Assembly (NCBI GenBank): GCA_949487135.1
Contig: CATAJQ010000001.1
Span: 1-37,173, forward strand
Reading direction: 5' to 3'
Length of the DNA: 37,173 bases
Source of the DNA: Cellvibrionales bacterium UBA7375
Lineage (GTDB): Bacteria; Pseudomonadota; Gammaproteobacteria; Pseudomonadales; Porticoccaceae
Under the pieces are notes generated by a model. That model was not told where the DNA came from and did not search any database. It saw only the letters and a list, made by a program, of their open reading frames with translations. Below are positions 45 through 7,108 of this stretch, one piece after another. Positions within the stretch are counted from its first letter, which is position 1; every line of letters starts with the position of its first letter. A program made the position numbers and the translations under genes.

Positions 45-263
45 CTAATCGATATCATTCTTAAGATTTTGGGAGATTTCTCTTACGTCACTTGCAATCT
101 CAACAACCACTTTCATACTAGCCCATACTAAAAATGATGAAAGTATTATGAGCACTCCAGCCACCCAATGAGTAAAAGCTACAGCTATGCCAAGAACAAT
201 AGCTGCAAGAAGACAAAAAGACAATGCAAAATCAAGGATTTTCACTGCAGCGGATCGACTCAT
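45..263 (-). CDS. Small two-helix membrane protein, unknown function
   Basis: This 72-residue protein is not recognised. It has two hydrophobic stretches (about residues 9-29 and 31-48) separated by a short turn around HWVAG, so it is probably a small inner-membrane protein. The C-terminal third is charged and polar (VREISQNLKNDID) and probably lies outside the bilayer. The start is the ATG at 261-263, without a strong Shine-Dalgarno. It lies just left of the first tRNA-associated repeat site and on the same strand as the cassette genes to its right, so it may be the cargo of a further cassette whose far end is outside the window. It could also be a spurious short ORF, but the clear hydrophobic pattern argues for a real gene. 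Confidence 0.5.
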   Translation of the reverse strand: MSRSAAVKILDFALSFCLLAAIVLGIAVAFTHWVAGVLIILSSFLVWASMKVVVEIASDVREISQNLKNDID

Positions 264-361
264 TATTTAGAACCCCAAAACAAATGATGGACAAGGTATA
301 AAACTATCTACTTTTAAATAAGATGTCAAAATATCTTTGTAGTTAGCAAGAAAACTAAATG

Positions 362-424
362 TATCGATTGACTAACAAAAACCACCTAAATATGCTAACA
401 GATGGCTAAAACAGGGTCAGTCGA
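362..424 (+). repeat. Recombination-site-like repeat, copy A (arm only)
   Basis: This copy aligns without gaps to copies B and D over the whole arm, from TATCGATTGACTAAC to AAAACAGGGTCAGTCGA. Differences are only scattered substitutions. It stops matching just inside the sequence corresponding to a tRNA anticodon stem, so it lacks the tRNA 3' part seen in copies B and C. The stop codon of the NERD gene begins 12 bp to its right. I read it as an element end (att arm) whose tRNA core was lost or replaced. Confidence 0.75.
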
Positions 425-435
425 TATACAGCATT

Positions 436-1008
436 CTATTTAAATTGATCGATATGTTTAATACGATTTTTCAAGGTTTTTTCAAGCCTATTTCCGTTTA
501 TAGTTTTAATGATTTTTGATACTTTTTCATGACTGATCACTTGGTTATTATGAGATTTAACAAATCGAGAGGCTTGTCTTCCATATGTTACATTCAAGGG
601 CATCTGTGTCTTAAAAACACAATCACCCACAAAAACTATTAGCGAATGCATTTGATTTTCATCAAGATTTAATAGCTTCATTAGTGTTAATAAATGCAAA
701 TGATTTTGTTTTAAAGGATTGCTAAAACTGAACTTTTTTTTATAAATGACTTGGGTCCATGTTTTTTGATTTTTTGAACCAAAAATCCATCCTGTCATAT
801 TTTTTGTTTCAATGACGAATACACCATAAATAGATACTAAAATATGATCAACTTGAGTAGTTCCTTTTTCTGTGGGAAGTAAAACATCATTAAATAAATG
901 ATAGTTGCTATCTAAAGCCCACTTTAGTGAAAATGAAACTTTTTTTTCTCCAAAAGAACCCTTAACAGCTGAGGGACTAATAGATTTAAGAAAAGATGAC
1001 ATACCCAT
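436..1008 (-). CDS. NERD (nuclease-related) domain protein
   Basis: This 190-residue protein matches the nuclease-related NERD family. The core pattern is visible: GSFGEK near residues 18-22, then D54 in TTQVDHILVS, then VFVIETKN with E67 and K69. This D...ExK arrangement is typical of PD-(D/E)xK-like nucleases. No helicase, kinase or zinc-ribbon partner domain is attached, so this is a stand-alone NERD protein. The likely role is DNA cleavage or binding, possibly in defence or mobile-element biology; this is inferred, as many NERD proteins are uncharacterised. It is the only gene between repeat copies A and B, and its stop lies 12 bp from copy A. The alternative start Met3 would change little. 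Confidence 0.75.
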   Translation of the reverse strand: MGMSSFLKSISPSAVKGSFGEKKVSFSLKWALDSNYHLFNDVLLPTEKGTTQVDHILVSIYGVFVIETKNMTGWIFGSKNQKTWTQVIYKKKFSFSNPLKQNHLHLLTLMKLLNLDENQMHSLIVFVGDCVFKTQMPLNVTYGRQASRFVKSHNNQVISHEKVSKIIKTINGNRLEKTLKNRIKHIDQFK

Positions 1009-1065
1009 TATTAAAACCAGTGTGATACTTTAAAAAAACATATTACATGGTTTTTGCTTTTAAAA

Positions 1066-1173
1066 TATCGATTTACTAACAAAAACTACCTAAATGTGAT
1101 AAGAAATGCCCAAAACAGGGTCAGTCGGCTCATAATCGATTGGTCGTAGGTTCAAGTCCAACTGGGCCCACCA
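1066..1173 (+). repeat. Recombination-site-like repeat, copy B (arm plus tRNA-Ile2(CAT) 3' fragment)
   Basis: The left part (1066 to about 1122) is the shared arm. The right part reads as the 3' two-thirds of a tRNA: anticodon loop CTCATAA, variable region TTGGTC, T-loop TTCAAGT, acceptor 3' strand GGGCCC, then ACCA ending at 1173. The D-arm and 5' acceptor strand are missing, so it is not a functional tRNA. One T-stem base pair is broken (GTAGG opposite CCAAC). The closest tRNA in memory is tRNA-Ile2, whose CAT anticodon is modified by TilS. This is what a tyrosine-integrase att site in a tRNA gene leaves behind. Confidence 0.88.
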
Positions 1174-1263
1174 TTCGCTTATAAATCAATAGCTCACATA
1201 TTTATCTAGATCATATTCACACATCAGGTACAGTAGAAGCTGTTGATGGCAAAGCATCATGCG

Positions 1264-1998
1264 CTATAATATTTTCCAGTAAACAAGCTCAATCTCTCCA
1301 GAGAGTGTCTCTACCAGTGCAGAATTACTATCAACCCAATCACCATCATTATAATATTGGATGCCACCAAGAATTTTCTTAGCAGGCTGATGGATGTGCC
1401 CACAAACTACACCTGAATAGCCTTTTTTCTGCGTTTCCTCTGCCATAAGTCTTTCAAAACGCTCGACATACTTAATAGCATTTTTTGCTTTACCTTTTAA
1501 ATAAGTCGCGAGTGACCAGTGCTTATAACCAGCTGCTTGCCTAATTTTATGAATTATCCTGCTCGCTAAAGTTACCATCTCATAAAGAAAATCGCCTATT
1601 TTCGAAAACCATTTTGCATGAAACATAAGCGCATCCATCTGATCACCGTGAGTGACCCATAACCTTTGACCAGATACCGTCACGTGAATATCATCCGTTT
1701 TAATCGGTATTTCACCGAAAGCCAAACCTGTAAATTGTCTTGCTACTTCATCATGATTACCAGGGATGTATATTACATTCGTGCCGTTTCTTGCCTTTCG
1801 CAATAACTTTTGGATAACATCATTATGTTCTTGGGGCCAATACCATTTATTTTTTAGCCTCCACCCATCAATTATGTCGCCAACCAGGTAGATTTTTTCC
1901 GCATCATTATGTTTTAAAAAATCCAGCAACTCACTAGCTCTGCAATTAACGGAGCCTAAATGTATATCTGAAATCCAAACAGTTTTATAATAATTCAT
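1264..1998 (-). CDS. LpxH-family UDP-2,3-diacylglucosamine diphosphatase-like metallophosphoesterase
   Basis: This is a calcineurin-like metallophosphoesterase of 244 residues, the usual size for LpxH. Metal-binding motifs are complete and in order: SDIHLG (D11, H13), VGDIIDGW (D41), PGNHDE (N81, H82), THGDQMD, and GHIHQPA near residue 200. The family hydrolyses UDP-2,3-diacylglucosamine to lipid X in lipid A synthesis at the inner-membrane face. This member may be a paralogue acting on a related pyrophosphate substrate, because it lies alone in an accessory cassette rather than near lipid A genes. The start is the ATG at 1996-1998. A plausible AT-rich promoter lies upstream (TTAACA at 2042-2037, TATAAA at 2021-2016, short spacer). 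It sits between repeat copies B and C, with its stop 90 bp from copy B. Confidence 0.8.
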   Translation of the reverse strand: MNYYKTVWISDIHLGSVNCRASELLDFLKHNDAEKIYLVGDIIDGWRLKNKWYWPQEHNDVIQKLLRKARNGTNVIYIPGNHDEVARQFTGLAFGEIPIKTDDIHVTVSGQRLWVTHGDQMDALMFHAKWFSKIGDFLYEMVTLASRIIHKIRQAAGYKHWSLATYLKGKAKNAIKYVERFERLMAEETQKKGYSGVVCGHIHQPAKKILGGIQYYNDGDWVDSNSALVETLSGEIELVYWKIL

Positions 1999-2205
1999 TT
2001 ATCTTTCTATTTGTTTTTATAAATATGTAACAGAATTGTTAAATAATTATGACGAAGATCCTTATTCGCCAAGGAAAAACAAAATAATTTAGGTACAAAT
2101 GAGATAACAGTTGTCATGACTTGGCAACAATTATCTTCATTATCGAGACATCAGCGAATCGTAATTGAATTTTTAACTTACTGTTTTATATAGAGACATA
2201 ATTTC

Positions 2206-2310
2206 GTCGATTGCCCTTCAGAAAAAATCAACCCCAAGAAAGACCATTAAAATACCGTCAGTCGACTCATAATCGATTGGTCATAGGTTCAAGTCCTACT
2301 GGGCCCACCA
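2206..2310 (+). repeat. Recombination-site-like repeat, copy C (diverged arm plus tRNA-Ile2(CAT) 3' fragment)
   Basis: From about 2259 to 2310 this carries the same tRNA 3' fragment as copy B, with anticodon loop CTCATAA, a perfect T-loop and CCA at 2308-2310. It has a single T-stem mismatch at the first pair (ATAGG opposite CCTAC). The arm to its left does not match copies A, B and D well, yet a CGATTG lies about 49 bp before GTCAG, almost the spacing seen in the others (51 bp in copy A). This suggests the end of a related but distinct element using the same tRNA target. Confidence 0.85.
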
Positions 2311-2347
2311 TTATTTCTACCAAATAGGTCAATCGATGAATAAGTTT

Positions 2348-2780
2348 TTATGGGCAACGAATATTGTTTGTCCTGTAACACAAATCGGCTAGTAAAAGCA
2401 GAGTACCCTCGTGCCCTTGTTCAGCTGCTTTTATGTACCATTTAATTGCCTTATTAAGGTTGACAGGACCTCCCTTTCCTTCTTCGTACATTATGGCTAG
2501 AAAAAACTGTGATTGTGGATGGCCTTGCTCGGCTGCTTTTTTGTGCCATTTTTTCGCATTTGAATAGCTTACAGGAACACCTTCACCAGATTCATACATA
2601 ATACCTAAGTAAGACTGAGCATCAGCATCACCAGCTTCTGCCATAGATATTATTAGCTGTTGGTCAACACCAAGAGCTTTAAGCGAAACATGCAAATCTT
2701 TTTTCTGGGTTGTGGCACAACCTGCAAGCAGGAAAAAAGATTAGAAGTAAATTTAGACAAATTGAAGTTAGAAGTCTCAT
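2348..2780 (-). pseudogene. Sel1-repeat lipoprotein with a frameshift in its signal peptide
   Basis: The readable C-terminal frame (2348 to about 2755) encodes the lipobox LAGC followed by ATTQKKD, then at least two Sel1/TPR-like repeats (ADAQSYLGIMYESGEGVPVS and QSQFFLAIMYEEGKGG). Sel1 repeats are protein-protein interaction solenoids often found in secreted or periplasmic proteins. The natural start appears to be ATG at 2778-2780, giving MRLLTSICLNLLLIF, but this frame does not join the LAGC frame. One base too many lies in the run of six A (plus strand 2733-2738); five would give a continuous lipoprotein. Without the frameshift the only in-frame start near the mature part is a TTG at 2693-2695, which would remove the signal peptide. 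A sequencing error or phase variation cannot be excluded. It lies between copies C and D. Confidence 0.7.
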
Positions 2781-2827
2781 GAATAAAGCCTGCAAATTAT
2801 TTACATTAGAATAAATCAACTAAAGTA

Positions 2828-2919
2828 TATCAATTGACTTACAAAAACCACCTCAATGTGCTGACAAAGGCCCAAAACAGGGTCAGTCAACTCATCATCG
2901 ATTGGTCGCAGGCTTAATC
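2828..2919 (+). repeat. Recombination-site-like repeat, copy D (arm plus decayed tRNA fragment)
   Basis: The arm aligns without gaps to copies A and B. The tRNA part is recognisable from CAGTCAACTCATCATCGATT through GGTCGCAGG, but has a substitution in the anticodon loop (CTCATCA for CTCATAA). It loses the T-loop and acceptor end after about 2912. It is the most decayed of the tRNA-bearing copies and the farthest right, as expected for the oldest insertion if new elements enter at an intact tRNA on the left. The stop codon of the GH16 gene follows within about 20-30 bp. Confidence 0.78.
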
Positions 2920-2938
2920 TAGGCTAATTCAATTAGGC

Positions 2939-5035
2939 TTAGGGCATATGAGATTCAATATAAGATTCAATCTCACTTGCACTGGTCCTTTCAGCTGCCT
3001 CATCAACAGCGCCATCAATTAGGTCATCACTTATAAAATTAAATAAATATCTCAACAAAATAAGCACATCAGATAGAGCATCAACCTGACCATTACCGTC
3101 AATATCTGCGATCTGTTCAACATTGGCAATATTTTCAATTACTTGCTCATTTGAAATACCAGATTCTGAGGAAATAGCCCCGCTGACAAGATCATCTCCC
3201 GTTAATTTGAACGTACCTCTTAATATTAGAACCCCATCAGACAGGGCATCAACACTTCCATCTCCATCTACATCCCAAGATATCTGGTCTACAACCTCAT
3301 TATCCGCTGTAGCATCAAACTCATCTGAGAAAATTAACTGATTATTAAGGTCATGTACCCGGATATAGTCAATTTCCATGGCACTTTCAATAAACTCAGA
3401 ATCAATAAACGGTTCTATGGCTATATTGAGAAGTAAGAAAAACTCAGAGTCGTAAGGCCAAGTATTGGCATTCTTAACACTGGGGTTATAACGATAATGC
3501 TCTATACCATCGATGCTAAAAATTATTCGATCTGAATTCCAGTCCATACTATAGGTATGAAATTCAGATGAAATAGTTGGTATATAACGACCCCCATGAT
3601 TTTGCGTTGCTCCATGACTAGAAGTCGTATGCAAAGCACTCTGAGCATAACCTTGATTTTTACCCCAGTGCTCTAAAATATCGATCTCACCAACCGCAGG
3701 CCATGATGTATTCCCAAACCCTTGACCAGCCCAGTAAGTACCTGATTCGCTGATATTTTTACCCAACATCCAAACCGCAGGCCATGTGCCATAACCGCTG
3801 GGCATTTTAGCCCTAAATTCTACACGACCATACTTGAAAGCAAATTTAGAATTTAGTCTAGCGGAAGTATATTCTTTGGTAACACCCTGATCGGTAAACG
3901 ACTCTTTTCTTGCGACAATTTTAAGGGTGCCATCACTAACATAGGAGTTACTGACACGATCAGTGTAATGTTGTATTTCACCATTAAACCAGCTATTACC
4001 ATTAGGCAATTTTGTTTGATGAAACCATTTAGTCGAATCTATTGCGACACCATCAACCTCAATATCAGCATTGGTGATACTGGGCAATTCATCGGCTGGC
4101 TCATTGGTTGGCGTTAGACTAAACCAGTTTAAATTTATTCCCGCTGAAGCTGCTTCAAATCTAAATGAATGAATACTTGCATTTAAGGTAACTACACGAC
4201 CTTGTTGCGTCTGCCAACTTTGCCATCCACCCGTCGCTGGAACAGAAAAAAGATCTGAGTACTGATTATCTACAAAAACCCTGAATCCAGGGCTACTGCC
4301 ACTTTGGCTGGCCACACGATAATTAAGACGATAATTGCCCGTGCTAGGTACATTAACAGCGTAGGTCAAAGAATCAGAGGCATCTACGTAAGCTACATTT
4401 TCACCACCACCGGTATCGCTGGTGCTTTCTGTTTCAATGCCATCGGCAAGACTGTAGCACTCTGCTTCAATTTGCATAACACCACTAGACTGCGGCGAAA
4501 AGTCACAACCATTTTGATCGTTTCCGTAGGGTGTCACTTGAACGTTTTTTAGGGTTACTGGAGTATCTAAATTATCGATATAAAGAATAAGAGAACGATA
4601 AATATTCGTCCCCTGTTCAGGAATCTCGATTGAGTATGTGGCTTCGGTCGTCCCGGTAACAATGACTGAATCAGTATTAAAGGCTGGATCTACATCTGGA
4701 TGGGGGAGCCGTTCTAGTCGAAAACGCACCGATGCTGATCCACTAACGGATGCGGTAAATGTTATTACCCCGCCACTGGATAAGCTAATTGGGTAAAGAG
4801 TGTCATTGGTATTAGCATAACCTGCCCAGACTAGCGCTCCAGATGGAACTTCTAGCACATCTTGGTCGCTGACATTAGCGCCACCAAAACCAGCCCAAGA
4901 GGCTGCATTGGCAAAGACTTTGCCACTCAATGTAATCGCTAGAATTACAATAAATAGCCTTGCAGTATTTTTAGGTTTGAATGTAATGAAAAAATGATTT
5001 TTTAATTTGTAAAAAATATGATCAATAAATGACAC
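2939..5035 (-). CDS. Secreted GH16 beta-glucanase (laminarinase-like) with CBM6 and dockerin-like repeats
   Basis: This 698-residue modular exoenzyme begins with a long charged N-region, a hydrophobic segment (about residues 27-40) and a likely signal cleavage after VFA near residue 43. A beta-rich segment (about 50-170) is unassigned. A CBM6-type carbohydrate-binding module follows (about 187-308, starting MQIEAECYSL). The GH16 catalytic domain (about 325-565) contains GEIDILEHWG, with E450 as nucleophile, D452 and E455 as acid/base. The C-terminus has two calcium-loop dockerin-like repeats (DVDGDGSVDALSDG and DIDGNGQVDALSD) and ends in EIESYIESHMP. GH16 enzymes of this type cut beta-1,3-glucans such as laminarin; the exact substrate is inferred. 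No polysaccharide-utilisation genes adjoin it. It follows repeat copy D and is probably cassette cargo. Confidence 0.88.
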   Translation of the reverse strand: MSFIDHIFYKLKNHFFITFKPKNTARLFIVILAITLSGKVFANAASWAGFGGANVSDQDVLEVPSGALVWAGYANTNDTLYPISLSSGGVITFTASVSGSASVRFRLERLPHPDVDPAFNTDSVIVTGTTEATYSIEIPEQGTNIYRSLILYIDNLDTPVTLKNVQVTPYGNDQNGCDFSPQSSGVMQIEAECYSLADGIETESTSDTGGGENVAYVDASDSLTYAVNVPSTGNYRLNYRVASQSGSSPGFRVFVDNQYSDLFSVPATGGWQSWQTQQGRVVTLNASIHSFRFEAASAGINLNWFSLTPTNEPADELPSITNADIEVDGVAIDSTKWFHQTKLPNGNSWFNGEIQHYTDRVSNSYVSDGTLKIVARKESFTDQGVTKEYTSARLNSKFAFKYGRVEFRAKMPSGYGTWPAVWMLGKNISESGTYWAGQGFGNTSWPAVGEIDILEHWGKNQGYAQSALHTTSSHGATQNHGGRYIPTISSEFHTYSMDWNSDRIIFSIDGIEHYRYNPSVKNANTWPYDSEFFLLLNIAIEPFIDSEFIESAMEIDYIRVHDLNNQLIFSDEFDATADNEVVDQISWDVDGDGSVDALSDGVLILRGTFKLTGDDLVSGAISSESGISNEQVIENIANVEQIADIDGNGQVDALSDVLILLRYLFNFISDDLIDGAVDEAAERTSASEIESYIESHMP

Positions 5036-5436: not shown

Positions 5437-5907
5437 TTAGCCTTCTTTGCCCTGATCAGAAGTCATATGGTTAATTTTAATAAAATCTGAAATGGCATTT
5501 TGAACACTAACCTTGATACTATTTAAGGCTATCGATTTTGACTCCATACCCAATCGAGAATATTCTTTACTTAAAACTGCGTGCATGAACTTTGTTGAAG
5601 GGCTGTAATCAACAAAAACCGCATTGGTTATGAATACTGGGTAATTATTTGGTGTTGCCAGACAACGGATAGATACACGAAGGTGTATAGCATCGCTGTA
5701 CCAAGTGTCGTTTTTTGGCTTGATTCCAGAGCTAAGAAAAACATCCTCAACCACTCTCTCTATGTCTCTTTGCTCTACAAGACAGTCCGAGCTTATTATT
5801 ACGCTGAAGGACAATTCTTTAGGATCAAATTTTTTCAATAATTCATTTGCGTTTGTGTGACTGCTAACAAATAGGGCTGCCGAAATAAGTAAAAACCTCA
5901 TAGTCAT
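5437..5907 (-). CDS. Small secreted protein of unknown function
   Basis: This 156-residue protein is not recognised. Residues 1-20 (MTMRFLLISAALFVSSHTNA) form a clear Sec signal peptide with cleavage expected after TNA, so the protein is probably periplasmic. The mature part has two cysteines, in SDCLVEQRD and IRCLATPNN, which could form a disulfide. Its alternating beta-like segments end in a charged tail. The start at 5905-5907 has a good Shine-Dalgarno (AAGGA, 4 nt before the ATG). It is divergent from the M48 protease lipoprotein gene, and the two might share a control region, but no functional link can be shown. Confidence 0.7.
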   Translation of the reverse strand: MTMRFLLISAALFVSSHTNANELLKKFDPKELSFSVIISSDCLVEQRDIERVVEDVFLSSGIKPKNDTWYSDAIHLRVSIRCLATPNNYPVFITNAVFVDYSPSTKFMHAVLSKEYSRLGMESKSIALNSIKVSVQNAISDFIKINHMTSDQGKEG

Positions 5908-6052: not shown

Positions 6053-7108
6053 ATGTTTAGGCTAAATAGTATTTTAGTTATTTTTTTATTTCTCGCTGCC
6101 TGTGCAGCACCAAGCACGACGCGAATGCAATACGATGCTGCTGAACTCAATACAGAAGCGGCTCTCCAAAGAGAACTCGCTCTCAAAAAAGACCTTAGCT
6201 ACAAGCAGCGATTACATAAGGTATCCTACCCTATTCTTAGCTCCGCAAATCAATTTTGCACTGAAAACCAAATCAACTCCCCAGGTGCTCAAGGCACCGC
6301 GAGCGGGGATTATGAGGGTTACTGGAAAAAAACCGCTGAAAAAATCTTAGGTAGCAATGAATTTACCATTACTTGGGTTGCCAAAAATGGGCCTGCTGCT
6401 AGAAGTGGGCTTCTAGTCAACGATAAAGTCCTAGCGGTTAATGATATACCTTATGGCAACCATCATCCGCAGCATACAAAATTCTATGCTGAGACTTCTC
6501 GCATCCAAACATCTGATTCTTCTGTTATCAATTTAAAAATTAGACGTGACGAACAGGTTTTTAACCTAAGGATTAACCAAGAAAAAATTTGTGGTTACCC
6601 TGTTGTGCTTCAAGGAAGCGATGCGGTTAATGCCTATGCTGATGGTAAAAGAATTATAATTACTAAAGGTATGATGAGATTCGCCAGAGACGATCAAGAT
6701 CTTGCCTTAGTTATCGCCCATGAGCTGGGGCATAACCTGATGGGTCATATTGATAAAAAACAGACCAATACTATGTTTGGCACATTGCTTGATCTTGCCG
6801 CAGCAGCCAATGGCTTCGACACTCAGGGTATTTTTGGCAGTGCCGGTGCCAGTGCATTCTCACAGGATTTTGAAGCCGAGGCTGACTATGTGGCCCTGTA
6901 CTATATGAATGCCGCAGGATTGCCGTTGGAGGGTGTTGCAGACTTCTGGCGCGATATGGCAGCAGAACATCCAGGCAACATAGGCTCTAATCACTCTGCT
7001 TCTCACCCCGCCTCATCTGAGCGATTTTTAGCTATTTCTAAGACCATCGATGAAATCAATCATAAAATTGCCCATGGTTTACCAGTGAAGCCTACTCTTA
7101 AAGATTAA
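6053..7108 (+). CDS. M48-family zinc metalloprotease lipoprotein with PDZ domain
   Basis: This 351-residue protein has a lipoprotein signal peptide (FLFLAACAAP, lipid-modified Cys17). A PDZ-like segment follows at about residues 105-180, with VAKNGPAARSGLLVNDKVLA, and then an M48 peptidase domain with HELGH (H223 and H227 as zinc ligands, E224 catalytic). FEAEADYVALYYM near residue 275 supplies the third ligand. Such proteins are envelope proteases for quality control, related to LoiP and BepA, though the PDZ-M48 order differs from those and the substrate is unknown. The start ATG at 6053 follows GGAAATGG. It converges with the alkaline phosphatase gene, and the two stops overlap by 4 bp, so there is no terminator between them. 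Confidence 0.88.
   Translation: MFRLNSILVIFLFLAACAAPSTTRMQYDAAELNTEAALQRELALKKDLSYKQRLHKVSYPILSSANQFCTENQINSPGAQGTASGDYEGYWKKTAEKILGSNEFTITWVAKNGPAARSGLLVNDKVLAVNDIPYGNHHPQHTKFYAETSRIQTSDSSVINLKIRRDEQVFNLRINQEKICGYPVVLQGSDAVNAYADGKRIIITKGMMRFARDDQDLALVIAHELGHNLMGHIDKKQTNTMFGTLLDLAAAANGFDTQGIFGSAGASAFSQDFEAEADYVALYYMNAAGLPLEGVADFWRDMAAEHPGNIGSNHSASHPASSERFLAISKTIDEINHKIAHGLPVKPTLKD

Follow-up and report, generated by a model that had tools for sequence, protein, structure and literature searches.

An array of single genes on tRNA-derived sites

The stretch of DNA analysed here (the window) is the whole of the 37-kb contig C1 of Cellvibrionales bacterium UBA7375, a marine metagenome-assembled genome of the SAR92 type (Porticoccaceae; 1.44 Mb, 92% complete, 47 contigs), and its left end is occupied by an array of single genes separated by sites that derive from a transfer RNA (tRNA) (Table 1). 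The genes of the array encode a NERD-domain protein, a calcineurin-like metallophosphoesterase, a Sel1-repeat protein, and a GH16 glycoside hydrolase, and all of them lie on the minus strand, ending 12, 89, 36, and about 22 nt from a site, respectively, in keeping with the 12–90 bp given in a preliminary description of the window. That description also placed single, unrelated genes between the sites, which holds for the first three, each bounded by a site on both sides, but not for GH16, which adjoins site 4 only; the enzyme termed LpxH-like there matches Pfam Metallophos. The listed Sel1 open reading frame (ORF) has an in-frame stop codon immediately before it. The G+C content is 31–37% in the first 3 kb of the window versus 42–47% from 6 to 12 kb. 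For the 156-aa ORF that precedes the conserved flank, no adjoining site, no Pfam match, and no match in 21 compared loci were found.

Table 1. Features of the array and its right flank (positions in the window)
Feature	Coordinates	Strand	Remarks
72-aa ORF	45..263	-	Precedes site 1; carried by the leftmost element, which continues leftward into the assembly gap
Site 1	361..424	+	P-arm type 1 (TCGATTGAC ... GGGTCAGTCGA); core lost after GTCGA
Cassette gene 1, NERD-domain protein, 190 aa	436..1008	-	PF08378 2.9e-31
Site 2	1065..1175	+	P-arm type 1 and full tRNA anticodon-to-3' half
Integrase leader remnant (P'1)	1176..1252	+	Stops just past the start codon of the integrase, whose body is absent
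Cassette gene 2, calcineurin-like metallophosphoesterase (LpxH-like), 244 aa	1264..1998	-	PF00149 1.3e-10
Site 3	2207..2337	+	P2 arm (2207-2263), tRNA-half core, P'2 arm (GTCAATCGA at 2328)
Cassette gene 3, Sel1-repeat protein, 115-aa ORF	2348..2695	-	PF08238 6.7e-25
Site 4	2827..2917	+	P-arm type 1 and truncated, decayed core
GH16 glycoside hydrolase with CBM6	2939..5035	-	PF00722 6.8e-21, PF03422 9.3e-19
156-aa ORF	5437..5907	-	Between GH16 and the conserved flank
M48 peptidase gene	6053..7108	+	PF01435 2.9e-21; first conserved gene right of the array

All four sites of the preliminary description, each on the plus strand, are real, on the evidence of a repeat search, BLAST, and a hidden Markov model (HMM) of the core. 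The repeat search, which is model-free, places sites 1, 2, and 4 in one family and sites 2, 3, and 4 in another. The ungapped arm, put at about 55 bp in the preliminary description, measures about 60 nt, is common to sites 1, 2, and 4 (84–87% pairwise identity), and runs into the tRNA sequence from the anticodon stem to the CCA end, fully in site 2 and partly in site 4. The anticodon-to-3' half of a CAT tRNA, previously ascribed to three sites, is carried by sites 2 and 3 and, its core being truncated, only in part by site 4. Within its own genome, a consensus built from these same copies retrieves the sites by BLAST at E 7e-45 to 1e-21. The core HMM yields E 7e-21 and 8e-21 for sites 2 and 3, both among its training sequences, and E 1.4e-7 for site 4, which was outside the training set, the best match in reversed sequence being E 1.1.

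Site 3, whose core was earlier placed at 2249-2312, is the most complete attachment site of the phage type (attP-like) in the window and has an arm pair unlike that of sites 1, 2, and 4. Its left arm is identical to the sequence before a second core at 48/56 positions in genome G119, 45/56 in G126, and 47/56 in G131, and its right arm matches the sequence right behind the tRNA in the same genomes (87–91% over 31–33 nt). Sites 1 and 3 account for all four occurrences of the inverted motif TCGAYTGAC/GTCARTCGA in the 37 kb. As read from the sequence, the arm–core–arm layout is the anatomy of a tyrosine-integrase attP, in which the crossover would fall in the anticodon loop. A function of the P-arm as promoter was rejected, a scan having given 10 promoter-like sites versus 12.6 in shuffles.

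Some viral sequences carry the same tRNA half. Nine IMG/VR contigs (L169, L170, L175, L177, L178, and L182-L185) contain it without the remaining tRNA, in L182, L183, L184, and L185 with the motif GTCARTCGA close by, and these copies may represent attP or attR of phages that use the same tRNA. One pattern for the P-arm, written in the ambiguity code of the International Union of Pure and Applied Chemistry (IUPAC), had no exact match in IMG/VR.

The tRNA and the integrase beside rpoD

ARAGORN found no tRNA in the window. An intact CAT tRNA and a tyrosine recombinase, anticipated to the left in the preliminary description, are present at the end of another contig of the same genome, C29, where an integrase ORF running off the contig end (297 aa, PF00589 1.5e-21) is followed by the tRNA at a distance of 88 nt and then by the sigma-70 gene (rpoD). 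This tRNA is called Met(CAT) by ARAGORN, and its body resembles that of tRNA-Ile2. Across an assembly gap, the ends of C29 and C1 are probably turned toward each other, because the order rpoD–tRNA–variable region–AlkP (alkaline phosphatase)–PurA is found on single contigs of G009, G015, G016, and G017 (in G009 with M48 as well) and because site copies lie directly left of the M48 gene in G075 and G074.

Tandem repeats of 113–121 bp are located right behind the same tRNA in G018 (L050 1794-2290), G002 (L051), G016 (L036), and G017 (L040). Each includes the last ~17 nt of the tRNA, exact in G018 and G002 and degraded in G016 and G017, and the repeats are reminiscent of the rtT repeats of E. coli tyrT.

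Relatives of the C29 integrase begin 88–90 nt behind the tRNA in G000, G004, G015, G028, G033, CPC310 (G071), and MED584 (G123). The full-length ones carry the R, HxxR, H, and Y residues typical of tyrosine integrases. Between G015 and G028, 970 nt from the tRNA end, the integrase stretch, are 99.2% identical versus 86% in rpoD, and between G004 and CPC310 the values are 93% versus 81%; for every other pair compared, the integrase either exceeds rpoD in identity by no more than about 5 points or is the more diverged of the two. Given that the integrases of these two pairs are far closer than their rpoD genes, some integrases have been transferred between species recently, and a fixed resident integrase serving as a platform was ruled out for these recent cases. 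A repeat of ~105 nt, designated R, occurs behind the integrase in G004, where it flanks a 121-aa gene (L037 ~2819-2921 and 3378-3480), and is also present in G015 (L053; contig C77, L192) and G010 (L190). It was dismissed as a general cassette site, since elsewhere it also trails other integrase-like ORFs.

Sites and intervals in related genomes

The arm recurs in other genomes together with a core and other cargo, as the preliminary description would have it: in G075, in G070, and weakly in G074. The full site is 93% identical to the consensus in G075 and 82% in G070, and the arm of the window alone is 86% identical to that of G075 over 59 nt. A profile of the arm alone, built from the G075 copy and the three of the window, was run on 132 loci, where G070 scored E 4e-4 and G074 merely E 0.1; the reversed sequences of the same loci gave nothing up to E 5. 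The gene that the arm precedes encodes a 140-aa DUF805 protein in G070, 169 aa that match nothing in Pfam in G075, and GH16 in G074; in all three the similarity ends at the outer end of the arm. Two or more copies on the same strand lie within 4 kb in 16 of 66 matching genomes and within 15 kb in 20, and among the listed contigs of these genomes none has copies on both strands.

The units between the sites are small and mostly hold a single gene. Stretches of at most 4 kb between site copies (25 intervals, from 41 loci, with ORFs of at least 100 aa called mechanically) contain exactly one such ORF in 15 cases, two or three in 4, and none in 6. The cassette intervals have a length of 0.46–3.6 kb, single-gene units of about 0.5–1.6 kb being common. 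The 24 interval ORFs include five homologous pairs by BLASTP, and 16 of them are on the minus strand overall; in the genus of the window the figure is 14/17, pointing toward the tRNA/integrase end. None matches an integrase, recombinase, relaxase, or transfer domain in Pfam (E <= 0.01), and tblastn with the integrase gave no match inside any of the 25 intervals, so that the units are, as originally supposed, devoid of an integrase. Cargo-free units are known too: the distance from the tRNA to a second, slightly decayed core is 87–91 nt in G119, G126, and G131, and such units measure 39 nt in G027 and 42 nt in G070. Longer intervals, of 6.4–8.9 kb, occur in G105 and G131.

Five or six tRNA-half copies are packed into 21 kb of contig C2 in G105 (~40.7-61.4 kb, L245/L246), with intervals of up to 7.2 kb, and one unit there appears to carry an efflux cluster of the resistance-nodulation-division (RND) type. 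In G025 (L054 1775-5345, tRNA on the plus strand), a 3.6-kb integrase-less element between two cores carries genes for a pyridine nucleotide-disulphide oxidoreductase, an ArsP-type permease, and an ArsR-type regulator.

Among the cassette genes of the window, GH16 alone is found at the loci of other genomes, namely in G074, where a homologue (81% over 2148 nt) has an arm and core remnant behind it and M48 next; the other GH16 matches are C-terminal pieces of ~55 residues. NERD matches occur in 4/111 other genomes of the family (E <= 1e-12), none of them in the genus, and the closest metallophosphoesterase homologue, 77% identical, belongs to G057, of another genus. At the species level, G074, a genome 90% complete, has GH16 but no match to either of these two genes at the thresholds used.

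Cassette differences between species

All comparisons of cassette presence and absence were made between species, and at this level cassettes vary at the site boundaries. G027 and G003 are 94–95% identical on both sides of such a place; the similarity breaks off at the tRNA 3' end and picks up again with the core copy. At this spot, G003 has 459 nt with one gene, G023 has a homologous gene (45% identical), and G027 has 39 nt, which cannot be regarded as a clean empty site because it is arm-like sequence. A second set with presence and absence at the same place comprises G074, G000, G009, and G075, where G009 and G075 have a lipoprotein cassette in common. In addition, a 1.2-kb cassette with a glutathione S-transferase (GST)-like gene is found in G058, AG-907-E05 (G131), and G057, three genomes of two genera, at 91–92% identity, and its right-hand similarity ends at the core. 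The array piece of AG-907-E05 (L081/L241) consists of a decayed tRNA-Ile2 copy, the GST cassette, a core, and an integrase fragment, and is situated at a separate locus, where its neighbours are a different CAT tRNA and a further integrase-like ORF.

Such differences might also come about by homologous recombination: once a few insertions had taken place, RecA could have duplicated, deleted, or exchanged cassettes between the repeats of ~50–110 nt without any integrase, a process that may be combined with site-specific insertion. The repeats are indeed long and similar, the lipoprotein cassette is common to G009 and G075, and in G025 a 372-nt stretch is present twice, once behind each core, at 99% identity. 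The single orientation of all copies does not discriminate between the two. However, RecA could not produce new units of gene plus arm, and the arms reach ~60 nt past the tRNA part, up to genes that are unrelated; as an account of the array, we therefore regard this shuffling as unlikely.

Leader remnants and the possible erosion of larger islands

Three places keep the leader of the integrase gene without its body: behind the core copy at site 2 of the window and, in G007 and G009, behind the tRNA. In all three the break falls no more than about 10 nt from the start codon of the integrase; it comes earlier in G025, and AG-907-E05 retains ~210 nt of the integrase gene.

This last fragment is what would be expected if large tRNA islands had been inserted in succession and then shrunk by random deletion to single genes and site copies. 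The truncation of sites 1 and 4, the stop codon upstream of Sel1, and the 6.4–8.9-kb intervals in G105 and G131 fit the same explanation, and cis-mobilizable elements (CIMEs) are described as decayed elements in the available text of a review (PMC5704250). Random deletion accounts less well for the confinement of three leader breaks to the vicinity of one start codon, for the absence of any integrase piece from the 25 short intervals, for related arms of ~60 nt joined to unrelated genes, for 87–91-nt cargo-free units kept in three species, and for one-gene cassettes that recur between species. Erosion on its own thus seems improbable. The copy of the array in the window is partly decayed (sites 1 and 4), and island erosion and RecA shuffling may both have contributed to it alongside serial insertion.

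Comparison with known systems

Integrons are the obvious comparison, with which the array has in common single-gene cassettes (15 of the 25 intervals, the arm standing beside unrelated genes), a shared recombination site of ~110 nt, and an integrase beside the primary site. If it were a true integron or a relative of one, its attC sites would happen to contain a tRNA half. Site 3 does fold somewhat better than shuffles (z -1.93/-1.95; 6 and 7 of 200 shuffles equal), and site 1 on the plus strand has z -1.72, but site 2 (z 0.98, 0.40) and the site of G075 (z -0.43, -0.93) fold no better than shuffles, and no clear attC fold emerges from these fold tests, no search with an attC consensus having been made. 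The integrase of G015 scores 43.9 bits against TIGR02249, for which the cut-off is 265, and on this score membership among the integrons was rejected; it has 22.1 bits against NF011946 (cut-off 435), with phage integrase families as its best matches, and the relative in G033 and the C29 fragment score 35.9 and 21.3 bits with integron-integrase profiles. Unlike in integrons, the site is tRNA-derived and attP-like, and the genes mostly point toward the integrase end, with no common promoter directed away from the integrase apparent from ORF orientation or from the promoter scan, which did not exceed shuffles. A true integron is therefore highly improbable.

Dehalococcoides has Ccr-type recombinases, which are of the serine type. 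Its ssrA islands are marked by 28 direct repeats with a conserved 15-bp motif adjoining, and 15 of the islands lack an integration module (PMC3146451). In the available text of that paper, the likeness extends to tandem islands at an RNA gene, a motif by the repeat, and members free of an integration module, whereas the recombinases are of the Ccr type, the repeats have 20 bp, the cargo is rdhA, and the integration modules of the vcr islands take up 9–11 kb.

Additive islands, in which cassettes targeted to a tRNA are marked by repeats of its 3' end, have been reported in Alteromonas (PMC4119200), Ca. Actinomarinales (PMC7771536), and Methylophilaceae (PMC10872708). According to the accessible parts of these reports, their content varies between strains, and in Methylophilaceae they go down to 330 bp with one gene (PMC10872708). 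The present array resembles them in its conserved tRNA target, its serial cassettes with direct repeats of the tRNA 3' end at their ends, and cassette presence and absence, here between species. It differs from them, as so described, in the arm outside the tRNA repeat, the leader remnants, and the cargo-free units; furthermore, most short units here are single-gene, and related arm and core sequences occur in several species.

CIMEs, reviewed in PMC5704250, are att-flanked elements without integrase or transfer genes that accrete in tandem at one site, and the 25 intervals, with att sites at both ends, conform to this in lacking integrase and transfer genes. In contrast to CIMEs, which this text derives from integrative and conjugative elements (ICEs) or integrative and mobilizable elements (IMEs) by decay, many units here are of ~0.5–1.6 kb with a single gene, and 0/24 ORFs have a transfer domain. 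Tycheposons, as defined in the available part of PMC10872708, are 4–200 kb long with a tyrosine recombinase and a tRNA border. The tRNA at the border, the tyrosine recombinase beside it, and the cargo have their counterparts here, but the units, at 0.46–3.6 kb and without a recombinase, are not tycheposons in that sense.

Taken together, the array is best read as an extreme form of tRNA additive islands and of CIME accretion; it is integron-like in function and not an integron. In the portions of the openly licensed PubMed Central (PMC) literature that were available, no description was met of an arm common to unrelated genes across species, of cargo-free units, or of leader remnants, whereas serial cassettes targeted to a tRNA are already known.

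Probable serial insertion of integrase-less elements

Serial, site-specific insertion at the tRNA-Ile2(CAT)-type gene by rpoD, with tiny integrase-less elements as the inserted units, is probably how the array grew. Comparison between genomes, a matter of sequence throughout, bears out the structure of the site, the unrelated cargo on a common site type, the boundaries at the tRNA end and the core, and the integrase-free units. Each small element would comprise essentially one gene and an attachment site made up of a P arm, a core from the tRNA anticodon loop, and a P' arm, and the elements would be inserted one by one through tyrosine-integrase recombination in the core, presumably by way of a circular intermediate. 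Every insertion would restore the tRNA, or the tRNA half, on the left and leave a copy of the P-arm and core on the right. Given that the elements carry no integrase, the enzyme would have to act in trans, and its most plausible source would be an element that sits at this tRNA and carries an integrase, like that on C29, or else phages using the tRNA. That the C29 integrase family moves the cassettes is slightly less likely than not; the matching enzyme is uncertain because the cassettes show two or more arm types and because the leader of the integrase itself lacks the cassette-arm motif TCGAYTGAC.

These two features also weigh against serial insertion as a whole, and others do so as well. 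None of 27 stretches around relatives of the NERD and metallophosphoesterase genes elsewhere (4/4 other NERD and 14/32 other metallophosphoesterase matches, most with ~1.5 kb of flank) holds a site. G027 and G003 differ by ~1.8 kb at a place free of sites as well. The GST similarity between G058 and G131 runs on the left ~130 nt past the tRNA copy, and a 3.3-kb insert that follows in G058 has no recognisable core at its right end and is missing in G057. Sites 1 and 4 are decayed, and the C29–C1 junction is deduced from gene order in relatives. Moreover, the integrase is detected at E <= 1e-40 in 9/112 genomes of the family (17/390 in the order, drawn evenly from a larger group), and many arrays must therefore be without it now.

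Should serial insertion nevertheless be right, phage-type integrases can collect genes singly, on integrase-less units hardly bigger than a gene, which would help to account for the gain of single genes, such as those for a glucanase, a nuclease, or a transferase, at one conserved place by ocean bacteria whose genomes are small. The arm–core–arm site would then be a concrete minimal mobile unit and would indicate a route from tRNA attachment sites to integron-like function. A more tentative and rather doubtful extension is that cassette capture of this kind operates throughout SAR92/Porticoccaceae, with a gene and an attP-like site of ~110–130 nt as the whole mobile unit, integrases that come and go on mobile elements of their own at that tRNA, and sites without cargo acting as landing platforms. 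If so, evolution would have arrived independently at a second way to perform the task of integrons.

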